Source of the DNA: Glycomyces algeriensis
GTDB taxonomy: Bacteria; Actinomycetota; Actinomycetes; Mycobacteriales; Micromonosporaceae
Direction of reading: 5' to 3'
DNA: 64,000 bases
Assembly: GCF_027622855.1 (NCBI RefSeq)
Contig: NZ_JAPZVR010000004.1
Coordinates: forward strand, 190,021-254,020
A model generated the notes under the pieces. That model did no database searches, was not told the origin of the DNA, and saw only the letters and a list, made by a program, of their open reading frames with translations. Both the position numbers and the translations under genes were made by a program. Below, in pieces: positions 22,411 through 31,778 of the stretch. Every line of letters starts with the position of its first letter. The stretch's first letter is position 1.

Positions 22411-22941
22411 TTACTTCGCCGAGGCCTCGGCGAGTTCGGGGCTGTGCGGGAAGACCCAGGTGCGGTAGGCGATGAACCGGAAGATCGAGCCGAGGCCGAC
22501 GCCGACGACGTTGGCGGCGATGTTCACCGCGAGGTCGGTGTCGAAGTACTGCGGCCAGATCTGGGCCAGGCCGGAGTTGGCCCACAGGCAGGCGAGCGCG
22601 ATGAGCAGGCCGATGCCGTTGAAGAAGAAGTAGAGGGCGTACTGGCGGTGGGCGGCGGCGCTGCCGCGGCGCTCGCGCCAGGTCCACTGGCGGTTCCCGA
22701 AGAAGGCCACGGTCATCGCGATGACGGCCGAGATGATCTTGGCGTACAGCTCGGACCAGTCCAGGCCGAGGAACATCAGGTTGAACAGCCCGATGTCGAC
22801 CACGTAGGCGACACCGCCGACGCCGGCGAAGCGGAGCAGCTCGGCCGCGTGGCGTCTCAACAGGCCGATCGCGCGCGTGAACAGACCCGCGAGACCGCGA
22901 CGAGCGGCCGGGGGCGGCGGAGTCTCAATGGAGGTCGACAT
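22411..22941 (-). CDS. GtrA-family membrane protein
   Basis: A 176-residue GtrA-like protein with four predicted transmembrane helices: LLRFAGVGGVAYVVDIGLFNLMF, KIISAVIAMTVAFFGNRQWTW, ALYFFFNGIGLLIALACLW and NVVGVGLGSIFRFIAYRTWVF. The NRxWTW and RFxxYRxWVF motifs are diagnostic. The family is thought to move polyprenyl-linked sugars across the membrane. The start is the ATG at 22941. The DNA upstream (22942-23238) carries repeat copy 2 and no gene. Confidence 0.88.
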   Translation of the reverse strand: MSTSIETPPPPAARRGLAGLFTRAIGLLRRHAAELLRFAGVGGVAYVVDIGLFNLMFLGLDWSELYAKIISAVIAMTVAFFGNRQWTWRERRGSAAAHRQYALYFFFNGIGLLIALACLWANSGLAQIWPQYFDTDLAVNIAANVVGVGLGSIFRFIAYRTWVFPHSPELAEASAK

Positions 22942-23238: not shown

Positions 23239-25950
23239 TTACTCCGCCGCGTCGTCGCCCGTCGGCGCTGCCACTGCCACCACTCCCACGATGAACGGGT
23301 CGTCGCCGCGCTCGAAGCGGATCACCGCCTCCTCGCCCGTGGCGACCCGGTACACGTTCACGTCGACGCCGAACGCGTACCAGTCCGGGTTCTCCACGGC
23401 CCCGTGCGCGCGGCAGGTCGCGGGCTCGCCGAGCCCCTGCCCGCCCGCGCTCAGGCTGTCGCCGCGGCGGTAGCCCGAGCCGCCCCACAGCGTCGCCGCG
23501 ACCTGGACCTCGCCGCCGTCCTCGACCTCGATCTCGGTGTCCGCCGCGCGCGGCCCGTCGTAGACCGCGACCTCCGTGACGGGCGCCCCCGGCTCCGTGT
23601 AGACCACGGTCAGCGACCAGCCGGCCCAGCGCCGCTCGACGCACTCGGCACCGAGGTCGATCGGCCAGTGGTCGCATTCGGTGGCCGGCAGCTGGTGGTT
23701 GTCGGTCGCGACCCAGTACTCGCCGCCGCCCGGCACGAGGTCCGTGACCTCGACGAACGCCTGCCGCCCGGGGTCCGTGTCCCGCACCGCCTCCGCACTG
23801 AGGTCGGTCCAGGACCCGCCCGGCCCCGCGAGCGAGACCGCCGTCGGCAGGCCTTCCTCGACGCCGGCCCAGTACAGGCCCGCCCACTCGACCTCGGCGC
23901 CGTCCGGCACTTCGAGCACCGCCCCGGAGACGGCCTCGCCTTCGCGCCCCGCGGGCGCGGTCGTGTCCTTGTACGGCTTCATCGGCCACTGCTCGCCGCC
24001 GCCGACGCGCACGAGCTCCTTGCAGCCGGGGACCGAGCAGGTCAGCCAGGTGTTCCCGGCCGCGGTGACGCCCGTGGCGTCCACGCTCGCGAACCCGACC
24101 TCGCTCCCGGCGGGCGCGATCGGCACCTGCAGCGAAGTCGTGCCGCTGATCCCCGGGCCCTCGACCGAGACCCCGAACGTCTGGTAGCCGCTCACGTCCT
24201 CGCCGATGAGGATGCGCACGTTGGCTTCGGCCGGGTCGGGCATCCTCGCGATCGTGCAGTGGACGACCGAGCCGTCTTCGGCGCACGTCCAACCGGGATC
24301 GGCGGTCTCGGAGGCGAGCGTGATGCCCGCAGGCATCGTGATGTCGAGCCTGATGCCGTCCGAAGCGGCCTGCCCTTGCCGCTGAACCGGCGCCGCTTCG
24401 CTGTCGCTGCTGCGCATGAACGGAACCGCTGCACTGCGCTCGAGCAGAGCCGCTTGGCCGTCTCCGCTGCGCTCGGCCAGAACCGTCTCGTCGTCTTCGC
24501 TGCGCTCGGCCAGCACTTCGTCGTCTACGCTTCGCTCGACGGGGGCCGCATAGCCGCCGCCGCGTCGCTCCTCACCATCCGTGTCCGCTTGCGCGCCAGC
24601 CGCTTCGGCCAAGCGCTCGTCCGGGCCGGACCCGTCCTGGGACCGCTCGGTCACCGGCGCGTAGCCGCCGCCGCTGCCGCCGGGCGGGGCGAGTCGGATC
24701 GGGAGGATCGCTTCGCCGCCGGCCACGAGGCCGCTCGAGCCGAGGCCGTGCGCGATCCCGTACGCGGCCGGTTCGGCCGCGGGAGGCTCCGACTCGTCCT
24801 CGGGTGCGGGCGGATCGGCCGGGTCCTCCGGGTCGGGTTCGGGCACGTCGTCGGGCGAGGGCGGAGCGGGCGGCGCGGGCTCGTCCTCCGGGTCGTCCGC
24901 CTGGACGACCGGCTCCTCGGGGGCGGCCTGCGGCGGCTGCTCCTCCTCGCCGCCGAGCGCGACGATCGCCACGACGGCGACCACCGCAGCGGCGGTGCCG
25001 GTGGCGACGGTGCCTTTGGTGCCGAGCTGCTGCACGATCCGGCGGATCCAGTTCGCGACCGCCTTGAACGGCATGAACAGGTACGCGAGCGCCCCGCCGA
25101 ACGCGATCCCCGCGGCCGAGACCGCGCCCGCCGCCAGGTACGGCGAAGCCGCGCCGCCAAGAAAGATCACGGCGATGACGCCGCGCAGGCCCGAGTTCAA
25201 CTCGGTGAGCTCGGCGAACAGCAGGTTGCAGGTGACGCACGAGTCCAAATGGTCGTCCACTTTGGAGGCTTCGCGCTCGCCGAGCTTGCCGCGCACGCGC
25301 GCGCCGATCCGGTCGACGGTCCAGCGGCACTCCTCGCGCGGGGAGTCGGCCGCGTGCTCGCTCAAGTAGTTCTGGCGCAGCTTCTCGCGCGCGCGGTACG
25401 CGAGCGCGGAGACCCCGTTCGGGGTCATGCCGAGCATGGTGGCGATCTTGGCCGGGGAGTCCTCCTCGACCTCGGTGTGCCACAAGACCATCCGCCAGCG
25501 CTCGGGGAGCTTGCCGAAGGCGAGCGCGGCGTAGCGGCGCTCCTGGCCCTCGACGGCGGGGTCGACGTAGATCTCGCCGGAGTCGTGCTCGGTGAGGTCG
25601 TCGGTGAACTCGACCTTCTTGTCGCGGCGGACCCGGTCGTAGAAGGTGTTGCGGAGGGTCTGGAGCATGTAGGGCCGGAAGGCGAGGTCGGGGCCGCCGC
25701 CTTCGCGGAAGGTGTGGAGGAGCTTCGCGAAAGCCTCGGAGACGAGGTCGTCGGCGCCGGCGGGGTCGCGGGAGAGGATGCGGGCGAGGCGGCGCGCGGA
25801 GTGGACGTGGCGCTCGTAGAGCACGGCGTAGGCCGTGGTGTCGCCGCCGCGGGTGGCGGCGATGAGTTCGGGGTCGGAGCGGGTCTCGGGGGTTTCGCCG
25901 GGGTCCGGGTCCAGGTGGCGGGAATCGCCGGCGGGGACGGTCTCGGGCAT
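23239..25950 (-). CDS. Membrane-tethered ECF sigma factor fused to anti-sigma-like zinc finger and ectodomain
   Basis: A 903-residue single chain. Residues about 28-110 form sigma region 2 (YERHVHSARRLARILSRDPAGADDLVSEAFAKLL) and 140-195 form region 4 (LPERWRMVLWHTEVEEDSPAKIATMLGMTPNGVSALAYRAREKL). A ZAS-like zinc finger follows (H234-x3-C238-x2-C241, with Cys208 upstream). Hydrophobic stretches lie at about 257-292 and 315-333, then an acidic Pro-rich linker (334-394), an ERS-repeat segment (435-507) and a large C-terminal domain with LEVPDGAEVEWAGLYWAGV as in bacterial surface proteins. ECF groups with such C-terminal fusions are known in actinobacteria (ECF52-like). Release by proteolysis is inferred. 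Confidence 0.85.
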   Translation of the reverse strand: MPETVPAGDSRHLDPDPGETPETRSDPELIAATRGGDTTAYAVLYERHVHSARRLARILSRDPAGADDLVSEAFAKLLHTFREGGGPDLAFRPYMLQTLRNTFYDRVRRDKKVEFTDDLTEHDSGEIYVDPAVEGQERRYAALAFGKLPERWRMVLWHTEVEEDSPAKIATMLGMTPNGVSALAYRAREKLRQNYLSEHAADSPREECRWTVDRIGARVRGKLGEREASKVDDHLDSCVTCNLLFAELTELNSGLRGVIAVIFLGGAASPYLAAGAVSAAGIAFGGALAYLFMPFKAVANWIRRIVQQLGTKGTVATGTAAAVVAVVAIVALGGEEEQPPQAAPEEPVVQADDPEDEPAPPAPPSPDDVPEPDPEDPADPPAPEDESEPPAAEPAAYGIAHGLGSSGLVAGGEAILPIRLAPPGGSGGGYAPVTERSQDGSGPDERLAEAAGAQADTDGEERRGGGYAAPVERSVDDEVLAERSEDDETVLAERSGDGQAALLERSAAVPFMRSSDSEAAPVQRQGQAASDGIRLDITMPAGITLASETADPGWTCAEDGSVVHCTIARMPDPAEANVRILIGEDVSGYQTFGVSVEGPGISGTTSLQVPIAPAGSEVGFASVDATGVTAAGNTWLTCSVPGCKELVRVGGGEQWPMKPYKDTTAPAGREGEAVSGAVLEVPDGAEVEWAGLYWAGVEEGLPTAVSLAGPGGSWTDLSAEAVRDTDPGRQAFVEVTDLVPGGGEYWVATDNHQLPATECDHWPIDLGAECVERRWAGWSLTVVYTEPGAPVTEVAVYDGPRAADTEIEVEDGGEVQVAATLWGGSGYRRGDSLSAGGQGLGEPATCRAHGAVENPDWYAFGVDVNVYRVATGEEAVIRFERGDDPFIVGVVAVAAPTGDDAAE

Positions 25951-26320
25951 CGTCGCCGGTGCTCCTTCCAGGTTGCGCCGAGCTCGTACGATCGGGGGGC
26001 TCGGGTGTTCGCTCGCGGGCGGGGACGGCGCTGCCGGGCAGCGGTGCTGCCCCCTTTACGAGCCTTCCTTGACTTAACGATCGAGCACGTCGCGAGTTGC
26101 GCCCGTTCAGCCGTTCGGGCAGGCTTCCGGCGAACTGGACATTGCAGAGAGTTTAGGGCAAAAACCCGGCATAACCATGTTTTGTGATGTGATTGTGACC
26201 AGGCGTGATCGTATTGGGACTTCCCATCCTGGTTCCAGGTAACTGTCGGAATTACGTCAGGCCATTGCGTACAGTTTGCTAACGCATTCCCGGCCGACTT
26301 CGACGCAAGGGAGGTGAACG
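25951..26320. promoter_or_regulatory. Divergent promoter region between the sigma-factor and SepX-like genes
   Basis: This 370-bp gap contains no gene. The stretch 26160-26290 is AT-richer than its surroundings, as expected for promoters. On the minus strand, GGAACC (26236 to 26231) lies 17 bp before TACGAT, an ECF-like -35 that might be read by the sigma factor itself; this is a weak inference. The sigma gene has GGAAGGAGC 10 nt before its ATG and the plus-strand gene has GGGAGG. Confidence 0.35.
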
Positions 26321-27148
26321 ATGCCCGCATCGGTCCTACTCGCACTCCTCGCCGCCACCGCCCTCCTGGCCCTGACTCCTGCGCTGGTGCGCCGCTACGA
26401 CCCCGACGAGCGGATGATCGCCGACCGGGCCTCGTCCGACGCCCGCGTCCTCGACCGCGAAGGCCACCGGCCCGCCCGGCCGACTTCCCACGACACCGCA
26501 GAGCTCGCGCTGGAGCGCTCCGGCGACGCGCCTGAGCAGGACGACTCCCTCGACGAGCTCCTCGACGGGCAAGGCCTTCCGGCGCAATCGAACTCACGCG
26601 GGTGGGAGCGGCGCGGCACGCGCCGCGGCGACTCGGTACGGTTGAAGGCCGACGAGTCGTACCCCGGCGAGGACCCCGAGATGCACGAGCAGGCCAGGCT
26701 TCGGCGGATGCGCGCCGAATGGTGGCGGCGGCGCCACCGCCGCATCCTCTACGTGCTCATCGTGCTCACGCTGCTCGAACTCGCCGGCGTCGCCATCGCC
26801 GGACCGGGCTTCTGGATCGGCGCGGGCCTCTCCGCGGCCGCCCTCGGCGGCTACGTCTACTTCCTGCGCGAGCGCGCCAAGCGCCAGCGCCGCGCGGGCC
26901 GCCGGCCCAAGGCCATGATCGCCGCCGAGCCCGAGCACGAGGAGGTCGGCCCGCCGACCTACGTGCCCGAGCAGCCCGACGGCGACGAGGACGACGAGGA
27001 CCTCGGCCCCCGCGAGTCGTTCCTGTTCGAGAACGGCTCGCTCGGCGAGGAGGCCGCGCCGGCGCCGCGTCCGGACCCGCGCCGTCCCGACGGCCCCGCG
27101 GGCGTGCGCGGCCGCTCCTACGAGGCGCCGGCGAAGCTCGAGCGCTGA
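26321..27148 (+). CDS. SepX/GlpR-like divisome membrane protein
   Basis: A 275-residue protein with an N-terminal transmembrane helix (residues 4-20), a charged cytoplasmic stretch (RRYDPDERMIADRASSDARVLDRE), and a pair of helices at about 143-185 after a strongly basic RRMRAEWWRRRHRRI. The C-terminal 80 residues are disordered and acidic/proline-rich. Helix order and the motif YVYFLRERAKRQRR match SepX (GlpR), which helps stabilise the Z-ring in Streptomyces. No globular domain allows a firmer call. The ATG has a good GGGAGG site. Confidence 0.6.
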   Translation: MPASVLLALLAATALLALTPALVRRYDPDERMIADRASSDARVLDREGHRPARPTSHDTAELALERSGDAPEQDDSLDELLDGQGLPAQSNSRGWERRGTRRGDSVRLKADESYPGEDPEMHEQARLRRMRAEWWRRRHRRILYVLIVLTLLELAGVAIAGPGFWIGAGLSAAALGGYVYFLRERAKRQRRAGRRPKAMIAAEPEHEEVGPPTYVPEQPDGDEDDEDLGPRESFLFENGSLGEEAAPAPRPDPRRPDGPAGVRGRSYEAPAKLER

Positions 27149-29969: not shown

Positions 29970-31778
29970 CTAATCCTTCAGGTAGAGGCGCATGACGCCG
30001 GTGCCGTCGCCGTCTTCGGCGCCGTGGGCCCAGGCGAAGGCCGAGAGCGGTTCGAGCCCGTCGAACTCGTCGGGGAACTCCTCGGCGGCGCGGGACAGGT
30101 CGACCCAGGCGACGACGGAGCACTGGCCGGGCGTGTTGGCGGCGAAGCTCGAGAAGCGGTCGTCGTCGGCGAGGGTGCCGTCGGCGGTGGCGGGTCCGGT
30201 GTAGCTGAGCTCGGAACCGTCCACTTCGATGCCTTCGGGGAGGGGCTCGCCCTCGCTCCAGGTCTCGATGTAGTCCTGGAGCTCCTGGGCGCGGTCCTCG
30301 GCGAGGTTCGCGGCGAAGTGGAGCGAGTCGGGGTCGAACTCGTCGCCGCCGAAGCTGCCGCCGCCGGTGAGGGTGGCGCCGGCGAGGAGGCCGGTGAGGT
30401 CGTTCACGGTGGACTCGACCTCGCCGAAGTCGGGGCCGTAGGTCTCCTCGACCCAGGGGTCCTCCTCGGTGCCGGCGGACCAGTAGCGGGAGTCGAGCTC
30501 CCAGTAGCGCGCCTCGTCCTCGGGGGCGAGGGTGTCGGACCAGTACTGGGTGTCGAGCTCGGTGTACTCGGCGTACTCCTCGGCGGTGAGCGGGGCTTCG
30601 ACCGGTTCGGACTCGGCGGCGTCGACGCCGTAGAACTCCTCGAAGAAGCCGAGCCAGCCCTGGGTGACCTCGTCGATGTTCTCGGGGACGTAGGCGGCGA
30701 GGGCGACGTCGGACGCGGGCAGGGCGCCCGCGGACTCGACGAGGCCGTCAGTGCCGGTCCACAGGTGGTCGGCGTCGCCGAACATCCGGTAGGTCAGCTG
30801 GAAGCCGTCGTCGAAGGCGGAGAAGCCGTAGATGAGGTGTCCGGAGTAGAGGTCCTTGACGGCGTCGCCCTCGGCGCCGGTGGTCATCTCGGCGATGTCG
30901 CCGACGGCCTCCATGTCGACCCAGTGGACGAGGAGCTGGTCCTCGTCGAGCCAGGCGCGGGCCTCGCTGTATTGGTCGGATTCGGCGAGGGGCTGGTCGG
31001 CGGCCTCGGTCTCGGCCGCGGCGAGCGCGTCGGCTGCGCCCTCTTCGCCGATGACGACGAGGACGTGGTCGTCCTCGACGGTGTAGGCGAGCTGCTCCTC
31101 TTCGGCGCCGGCGGCGCTGCGGATCTGGGCCATGCCGTCCTCGGCGGCGCCCGCGTCGGTGCTGGCGAGGCTCAGGACGGCGAAGGTCTGGCCGTCGTGC
31201 TCCCAGGTGGCGAGGCCGTGGCGGCGCCCGAGCCAGGAGTTGATGTCCTCGTCGGCGTCGACGCCGTCGATGCCGGACTCCTCGATGAAGCCGTCGATGA
31301 GCTCGTTCGTGTCGTCGTAGTCCTCGAGGTCCTCGAACTTCTGGAGGTGGTCGAGGAGCTTCGGGGTCTGGTCGAACGAGGGGTCGAGGTTGAGCTCGAC
31401 GTACATGCTCGCGGTCGCGGGGAAGCTCTCGGCGGGGTCGGGGCCCTGGTTCAGGACGAACTTGAAGAGGACGACGGCGCCCACGGCGGCGAGGAGCACG
31501 ACGGAGAGGATCGCGGCGACGGCGACCTTGGGCCCGCGGCCCTTCCGGGGCGCCTGCATGGGAACCGGGCTGTACGCGCCGGGCGGGACGTAGGCCCCGG
31601 CGGGCTGCTGCGGCACGCCCTGCTCCACATAGGGCTGGGGCTGCGGCTGGTAAGCGCCCGGCTGGGCCTGGTAGGCCCCCGGCGGCGGCTGGTACGCGCC
31701 CGGCGGCGGCCCGTAGCCGCCCGGAGGCGGCTGGTTGGGGTCGCCGGGGTACGGCTGGGGGCTGGGATCGCTCGACAT
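29970..31778 (-). CDS. DUF3352 membrane-anchored protein
   Basis: A 602-residue protein. The N-terminal 75 residues are cytoplasmic and low-complexity, with PPPGAYQ repeats rich in Pro, Gly, Gln and Tyr. One transmembrane helix follows (about 85-107, VAVAAILSVVLLAAVGAVVLFKFVL) and then a large acidic extracytoplasmic DUF3352 domain starting PAESFPATASMYVELNLDPSFDQ. An internal repeat (LDTQYWSDTLAPEDEA / LDSRYWSAGTEED) lies near residue 440. Function unknown. The ATG follows TAGCGT by 6 nt, so it is likely leaderless. Confidence 0.82.
   Translation of the reverse strand: MSSDPSPQPYPGDPNQPPPGGYGPPPGAYQPPPGAYQAQPGAYQPQPQPYVEQGVPQQPAGAYVPPGAYSPVPMQAPRKGRGPKVAVAAILSVVLLAAVGAVVLFKFVLNQGPDPAESFPATASMYVELNLDPSFDQTPKLLDHLQKFEDLEDYDDTNELIDGFIEESGIDGVDADEDINSWLGRRHGLATWEHDGQTFAVLSLASTDAGAAEDGMAQIRSAAGAEEEQLAYTVEDDHVLVVIGEEGAADALAAAETEAADQPLAESDQYSEARAWLDEDQLLVHWVDMEAVGDIAEMTTGAEGDAVKDLYSGHLIYGFSAFDDGFQLTYRMFGDADHLWTGTDGLVESAGALPASDVALAAYVPENIDEVTQGWLGFFEEFYGVDAAESEPVEAPLTAEEYAEYTELDTQYWSDTLAPEDEARYWELDSRYWSAGTEEDPWVEETYGPDFGEVESTVNDLTGLLAGATLTGGGSFGGDEFDPDSLHFAANLAEDRAQELQDYIETWSEGEPLPEGIEVDGSELSYTGPATADGTLADDDRFSSFAANTPGQCSVVAWVDLSRAAEEFPDEFDGLEPLSAFAWAHGAEDGDGTGVMRLYLKD

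Follow-up and report, generated by a model that had tools for sequence, protein, structure and literature searches.

A putative ECF52-like one-chain sigma factor with an adhesin-type ectodomain, genetically linked to GtrA, in Glycomyces algeriensis

The product of a single 903-codon gene of Glycomyces algeriensis, analysed within a 64,000-nucleotide stretch of contig NZ_JAPZVR010000004.1 (hereafter the window), is probably an ECF52-like one-component, membrane-anchored sigma factor that is inhibited by its own zinc finger, senses the wall through an adhesin-type ectodomain, and is freed by proteolysis. The anatomy of the protein, its predicted orientation, the linkage of its gene to a GtrA-family gene, a two-box upstream element and the loss of the receptor half in certain relatives are all supported by the data presented below. 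Relevant coordinates are collected in Table 1.

Table 1. Features of the one-chain sigma factor gene and its surroundings (positions in the window)
Feature	Position	Strand	Basis
Whole gene, one-chain ECF sigma/zinc finger/membrane/ectodomain protein, 903 aa	23239..25950	-	Open frame and Pfam
ECF sigma domain, residues about 27-200, regions 2 and 4	25351..25872	-	Pfam, NCBIfam, AF2 helices, Foldseek
zf-HC2 anti-sigma finger, residues 208-241 (C208, H234, C238, C241)	25228..25329	-	Pfam, 77-row alignment
First hydrophobic stretch, residues 258-295, weak	25066..25179	-	Hydropathy, AF2, charge scan
Final transmembrane segment, residues 315-333, predicted N-in/C-out	24952..25008	-	Hydropathy, flanking charge
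Acidic Pro-rich linker, residues 334-394	24769..24951	-	Net charge
DUF11/integrin-like Ig-type stalk domain, residues 395-613, interrupted by disordered insert	24112..24768	-	
Disordered insert carrying five ERS repeats, residues 428-528	24367..24669	-	pLDDT, 45-row alignment
DUF3344-like C-terminal domain, residues 614-903	23242..24111	-	Homology and profile searches
GtrA-family gene, downstream partner	22411..22941	-	Pfam; start codon picked by eye
SepX/GlpR-like divisome gene, divergent neighbour	26321..27148	+	NF050101, 108.7 bits, just below cut-off 110
Promoter-like element of ECF type, CAAC-N16-CGTTA, 124 bp from its end to the start codon	26075..26099	-	22-genome alignment

The fused gene and its sigma-finger half

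Translation of the window confirmed, on the minus strand, the uninterrupted frame that had been reported originally, and third-position GC was high (0.84-1.00) in each of its nine 100-codon blocks. Genome searches recorded the gene in 22 of 22 Glycomyces genomes, own genome counted, with the sigma and C-terminal halves in a single frame in 21; in the remaining genome (G369) the halves lay on two contigs. Seven C-terminal genome matches crossed a stop codon, which in all seven was the gene's own end. Since one frame recurs in 21 of the 22 genomes and is kept in relatives, the sigma-receptor fusion is real, and the 903-residue protein was thereby confirmed as genuine and well conserved. A frameshift, the concern raised in the original prediction, or an assembly error joining two or three genes is of negligible probability given the single frame in Glycomyces and in many named relatives and the coding-like GC along the whole gene, and nothing was found in its favour.

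A protein search with the 903-residue query scored 7999 candidates, 129 of them at E <= 1e-3, and the best 120 of the 129 were used thereafter. The closest named protein among the matches listed was that of Glycomyces tritici (88% identity, full length), and a relative at E <= 1e-20 was present in 35 of 61 sampled genomes of the family, own genome counted.

Pfam matches above the curated cut-offs located Sigma70_r2 at residues 44-112, Sigma70_r4_2 at residues 143-191 and zf-HC2 at residues 208-241, and in a 45-row alignment (window protein counted) residues 26-250 displayed mean identities to the window protein of 0.87-0.97. All four finger ligands, C208, H234, C238 and C241, were invariant across a 77-row alignment consisting of the window protein and 76 of the best 120 relatives, the last three of them forming the Hx3Cx2C motif of the class I anti-sigma domain (ASDI), in which helix 1 is described as binding sigma4 and helix 4 as binding sigma2 (PMC7406223). 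An AF2 model of residues 1-345 returned most sigma and finger helices with confidence, although neither a placement of the finger on the sigma domain nor a folded-back complex is predicted from it because pTM was only 0.40. Foldseek comparison of the sigma/finger model matched SigL, SigH, AlgU, SigW, E. coli sigmaE and other ECF factors. Both the sigma regions and the finger with its upstream cysteine, first recognised from the letters of the sequence, were thereby corroborated. The accompanying claim that there is no separate anti-sigma gene was likewise upheld for the neighbourhood: no anti-sigma family was detected among the seven neighbour proteins scanned, and a search of the genome confined to zinc-finger (zf-HC2) anti-sigma factors returned three proteins, of which the two other than the 903-residue protein sit on other contigs.

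Membrane topology and ectodomain

Hydropathy analysis located hydrophobic windows at residues 258-276 (1.77), 277-295 (1.62) and 315-333 (2.31), in agreement with the predicted membrane helices, albeit weakly for the first region. Equivalent analysis of a set of 119 proteins, from which two without a finger had been left out, confirmed a final segment with a mean hydropathy >= 1.6 in 118, the exception (P0115) having a weak segment. In every one of the 118, net charge was more positive in the 20 residues before this segment than in the 20 after it (means of +2.7 vs -3.8), and the following 60 residues carried an average charge of -13.8 and 18 prolines. The corresponding acidic Pro-rich linker of the window protein, as originally described, has a net charge of -22 over residues 334-400 and is weakly conserved. 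The earlier stretch, residues 258-295 in the window protein, reached 1.6 in 88 of the 118 proteins and was poorly modelled by AF2; it may form a hairpin, a single crossing or a peripheral element.

Application of the positive-inside rule to the final segment places the C-terminus out, although if residues 258-295 constitute one full crossing the prediction would depend on the charge pattern of the final segment and on nothing else. Cysteines 556, 565, 638 and 643 were present in 57 of 57 alignment rows and would fit disulphides formed outside the cell. Together, the charge bias, these four cysteines and kinship with signal-bearing Streptomyces proteins lead to the prediction that the C-terminal half lies outside the cell, where the original prediction had put the sensor.

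The ectodomain is probably of a beta-rich adhesin type, a DUF11/integrin-like stalk followed by a DUF3344-like domain, in keeping with the surface-type C-terminal domain reported earlier. Outside its disordered insert it retained mean identities of 0.59-0.82 (45 rows). PF11824 (DUF3344) gave no listed match for the window protein itself; 5 of 57 rows matched it at E <= 0.1 (best 3.6e-4), and the Streptomyces-like homologue L012 scored E 2.3e-5 and 24.6 bits, below the cut-off of 27.2. The DUF3344-like part also matched both Streptomyces-like proteins of about 400 residues with a signal-like N-terminus, as judged by eye, and large DUF11-repeat proteins. Three such short proteins (L012, L014, L017) were observed to consist mostly of the DUF3344-like domain behind the signal-like N-terminus. 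Whole-model Foldseek scores for the ectodomain were weak (TM about 0.15); a second structural comparison (VIA) resolved the stalk domain, while its rows barely test residues 614-903, to which no structural family was assigned from either comparison. No CBM, NPCBM or ricin family was detected by Pfam (E <= 0.1) in the window protein or its 56 relatives in alignment A1; the DUF3344-like ectodomain may bind sugar. Standalone relatives of the C-terminal half numbered two among 7994 scored candidates (513 and 533 residues, possibly contig-end fragments) in a search whose length limits hide larger proteins, and the half was found, with weak scores, in 10 of 296 genomes searched (E <= 1e-3, own genome counted).

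The five ERS repeats, which the original prediction had taken as a clue to the signal, are indeed present (residues 435, 472, 482, 493 and 504), but they occupy an unconserved, disordered loop inserted in the stalk domain. This insert, for which pLDDT was mostly < 50, varied from 18 to 105 residues in length among the 45 rows, with mean identities to the window protein of only 0.06-0.19 over residues 451-525. At least three ERS were found in the window protein only, and at least one in 7 of the 45 aligned rows, window protein counted. The repeats were therefore rejected as a functional signature and considered strain-specific.

Genetic linkage, receptor loss and the upstream element

Examination of 40 regions around relatives, drawn from 34 genomes that represent every other genome matched in the family sample, revealed a same-strand GtrA gene directly downstream of the sigma gene in 33 (28 of 34 plus 5 of 6). 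The sigma-GtrA distance was computed for 28 of these linked regions: relative to the stop codon of the sigma gene, the estimated GtrA start fell in the range -60 to +200 bp in 25, and at 208, 351 and 888 bp in the others. One GtrA-linked copy was present in 33 of the 34 genomes, the exception (G332) being seen on an 11.9-kb contig only; the genomes contributing the six other GtrA-free regions have a linked copy elsewhere, and one of these six, L156, stops a short way past the sigma gene. In certain genomes there is an additional fused sigma of 776-882 residues with no GtrA beside it (L060, L062, L078, L079); L060, L062 and L078 lie in a separate branch of the tree described below.

In the window itself the GtrA gene, one of two of its family in the genome, starts about 300 bp downstream of the sigma gene, a gap that leaves co-transcription unproved at this locus. 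The whole block of PccB, biotin ligase, bPH2, GtrA and sigma is frequently retained, and the linkage therefore owes something to general synteny. A role in flipping lipid-linked sugars, used to glycosylate cell-wall polymers, has been suggested for proteins of the GtrA type (PMC8035078). The envelope or division signal initially proposed is consequently better argued, as regards the envelope, from the recurrence of GtrA than from the ERS repeats or the divergent SepX-like gene. The latter lay beside only 4 of the 40 regions (L048-L051; 4 of 34 plus 0 of 6), in a survey where L158 had no upstream sequence and L067 only about 1.2 kb, and the SepX pairing put forward as a functional link was on this count rejected as a general one; a link within Glycomycetaceae is possible. 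Elsewhere in the window, positions 29970-31778 encode a 602-residue protein that is rich in Pro and Gln towards its N-terminus, shows a single membrane segment on inspection by eye and matches DUF3352 weakly.

Short proteins occupied the sigma position at 12 of the 33 GtrA-linked regions. Eight of these (L068-L075) comprised sigma and finger without membrane segment or ectodomain, L075 also missing the first cysteine of the finger motif, and four (L080, L154, L155, L159) comprised sigma alone. Individual short forms may reflect draft-genome frameshifts, but in the nine measured the sigma-GtrA gap was -45 to +208 bp, which leaves no room for a receptor. Phylogenetic analysis was conducted first with 65 rows and then, after the removal of long, short or poorly aligned sequences (OwL002, OwL003, OwL004, StL119, StL120, MiL081, MiL076), as a midpoint-rooted tree of 58 sigma and finger rows; 37 of the best 120 relatives were in the trees, and L113 was left out of both. 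Seven of the 12 short forms were in the 58-row tree, where they formed one clade (97/86) nested in a clade (98/92) otherwise made up of DUF3344-receptor proteins. The simplest reading of these sequences is that one lineage lost the receptor half and then, locally, the finger, whereas its sigma gene stayed linked to GtrA. Full receptor, soluble sigma plus finger, and sigma alone thus occur as natural variants of a single locus, and the respective roles of receptor and finger could be tested by swapping them.

A two-box AAC ... CGT arrangement is typical of ECF promoters. Upstream alignment of the 22 Glycomyces (495 bp, of which about 420 bp precede the start codon and 75 are coding) revealed invariant CAAC and TCGTTA boxes in all 22, with 16 bp from CAAC to CGTT and a spacer of variable sequence. 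The CAAC-N16-CGTT arrangement also occurred upstream in L050 and L051, from two other genera (chance rate across these loci 0.009 per 480 bp); of the 34 regions tested, a further 30 all lacked it. Autoregulation via the CAAC-N16-CGTTA element is plausible. Within the genome itself the element was not enriched, with four exact sites vs six for a reversed control, and no regulon is claimed from that search; one of the genomic sites is located 184 bp ahead of a frame that resembles an aldo/keto reductase (family assigned by eye). Two further, strongly conserved blocks were recorded in the 22 Glycomyces at window positions 25951-26320, around TACGCA...CCTGACG and GTCACAATC...ATCACAAT, and are perhaps the divergent sepX promoter and an operator.

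Proposed mechanism and comparison with known systems

In the mechanism envisaged, the zinc-finger domain would hold the sigma domain in check on the cytoplasmic side of the membrane, and the Ig/DUF11-like stalk and DUF3344-like domain, extended on the long linker, would sense a wall signal, of which a glycan or surface contact is the likeliest. Such a signal could trigger stepwise proteolysis, a cut outside being followed by one made by a site-2 protease, and the freed sigma domain would then transcribe its own gene plus envelope genes, the downstream GtrA being a candidate. We infer the ligand, the proteolysis, the self-inhibition by the finger and the target promoters from anatomy, linkage and precedent. 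The idea that sigma must be cut free, one of two options in the original prediction, is supported by the SCO4117 and IutY precedents to the extent that such analogies allow. The genome encodes two proteins of the Peptidase_M50 (site-2 protease) family, but that family occurs almost everywhere (14 of 14 control genomes). Neither the promoter element nor the relatives that lack a receptor argue very clearly for the full mechanism, and the twelve GtrA-linked relatives without a receptor count against it.

The other option, that sigma is active while still membrane-bound and that ligand or wall tension reshapes the finger region so as to free sigma without cleavage, would be permitted by the long linker and the ambiguous hydrophobic stretch beside the finger, and the scan of seven neighbour proteins yielded no protease family. 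It is nevertheless considered unlikely, given the site-2 protease genes in the genome and the expectation that proteins of this fused type are proteolytically released, as shown for IutY (PMC8999054). A rather improbable alternative is that the ectodomain serves mainly as a structural wall or adhesin anchor, with sigma controlled otherwise, by transcription or by redox at the zinc finger: its domains are of the adhesin type, and the receptor-less forms at the same place indicate that sigma can dispense with it, but the identities retained outside the insert, and a fusion maintained across genera, would be needless for a mere anchor. A Notch-like, contact- or tension-gated mode of action, in which surface binding or a yielding wall causes stalk and head to tug at a cleavage site or to expose it, is distinctly improbable; if true, a single chain would convert adhesion or wall strain into transcription.

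Comparison of the proteolytically released sigma factor favoured here with known systems was made from the published descriptions available. In IutY of Pseudomonas putida (ECF243), sigma and a membrane anti-sigma domain form one fusion protein, from which cleavage releases sigma (PMC8999054); as described, IutY resembles the window protein in being a membrane-anchored one-chain sigma/anti-sigma, but participates in Gram-negative siderophore cell-surface signalling, whereas the window protein holds its receptor within the same chain. Adhesin-type DUF11/DUF3344 proteins (PMC9210967) are described with the same integrin-alpha-like/BcpA-like stalk and DUF3344-type domain, but these surface proteins contain no sigma factor. 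No sigma factor fused to DUF11 or DUF3344 appeared among the papers listed in a literature survey that covered titles and the starts of abstracts and had subscription papers mostly outside its scope. By way of contrast with the single chain, the same genome also contains a canonical-looking split pair (L002 / G000 C12:564156-564790), in which a zf-HC2 frame lies right behind an ECF sigma frame on the same strand.

One-chain sigma receptors have been predicted for several actinobacterial ECF groups, and in ECF48 and ECF53 a fused zinc finger is accompanied by one or two transmembrane helices (PMC8999054). The best understood of them is said to be SCO4117 of Streptomyces coelicolor, for which the available text names no signal (PMC8999054); it has a carbohydrate-binding end, lies beside atrA and is associated with the motif CSGYN-17 bp-SRHA (PMC5826349), and its release by proteolysis has been proposed (PMC5826349, PMC8999054). 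Relatives of the window protein were found in all eight Streptomyces-like genomes, with 38-40% identity over the sigma/finger match at six loci and 36% at L113, where no NPCBM end was seen; NPCBM was confirmed by Pfam in the two of these six that were scanned (L109 and L110). L110 has a TetR-like gene upstream, comparable to the position of atrA beside SCO4117, and an adjoining NADH-dehydrogenase-like gene (both families by eye). In the 58-row tree the six rows of the NPCBM-type Streptomyces group stood next to the large group containing the window protein, across a well-supported (100/98) but long branch; a second Streptomyces group was further off (100/100), with a warning from the tool of long branches meeting. 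Several long Streptomyces-like proteins (L116-L118, L120-L122) weakly resemble the sigma/finger part and have a hydrophobic segment; a ricin-type lectin domain was identified by Pfam in L116, from the second group, and in L120, from outside the tree, neither of which matched a sigma family at E <= 0.01. More generally, sigma and finger were present in all 36 of the 46 relatives P0077-P0122 that were scanned, and recognised sensor domains were few (DUF11 in four, ricin in one, NPCBM-associated in one).

The window protein shares with ECF52 and SCO4117 sigma regions 2 and 4 of the ECF type, a following zf-HC2 finger, a membrane segment, a Pro-rich extension and a predicted extracytoplasmic domain, all in an actinobacterial setting; the one-chain build suggested at the outset by comparison with ECF52-like groups therefore stands, whereas the carbohydrate-binding C-terminal domain listed for ECF52 was not found with the same Pfam tool that detects NPCBM in L109 and L110. 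Because no such domain is recognised, the protein is called ECF52-like and is not filed as ECF52. Its sensor is DUF11/DUF3344-like where ECF52 and SCO4117 deploy a carbohydrate-binding module, and its neighbour is GtrA where that of SCO4117 is atrA. The general kind is thus known from SCO4117, while the receptor-loss series and the ectodomain type look new, and define a family whose ectodomain is of the adhesin type rather than a sugar-binding module and whose conserved genetic partner is GtrA.
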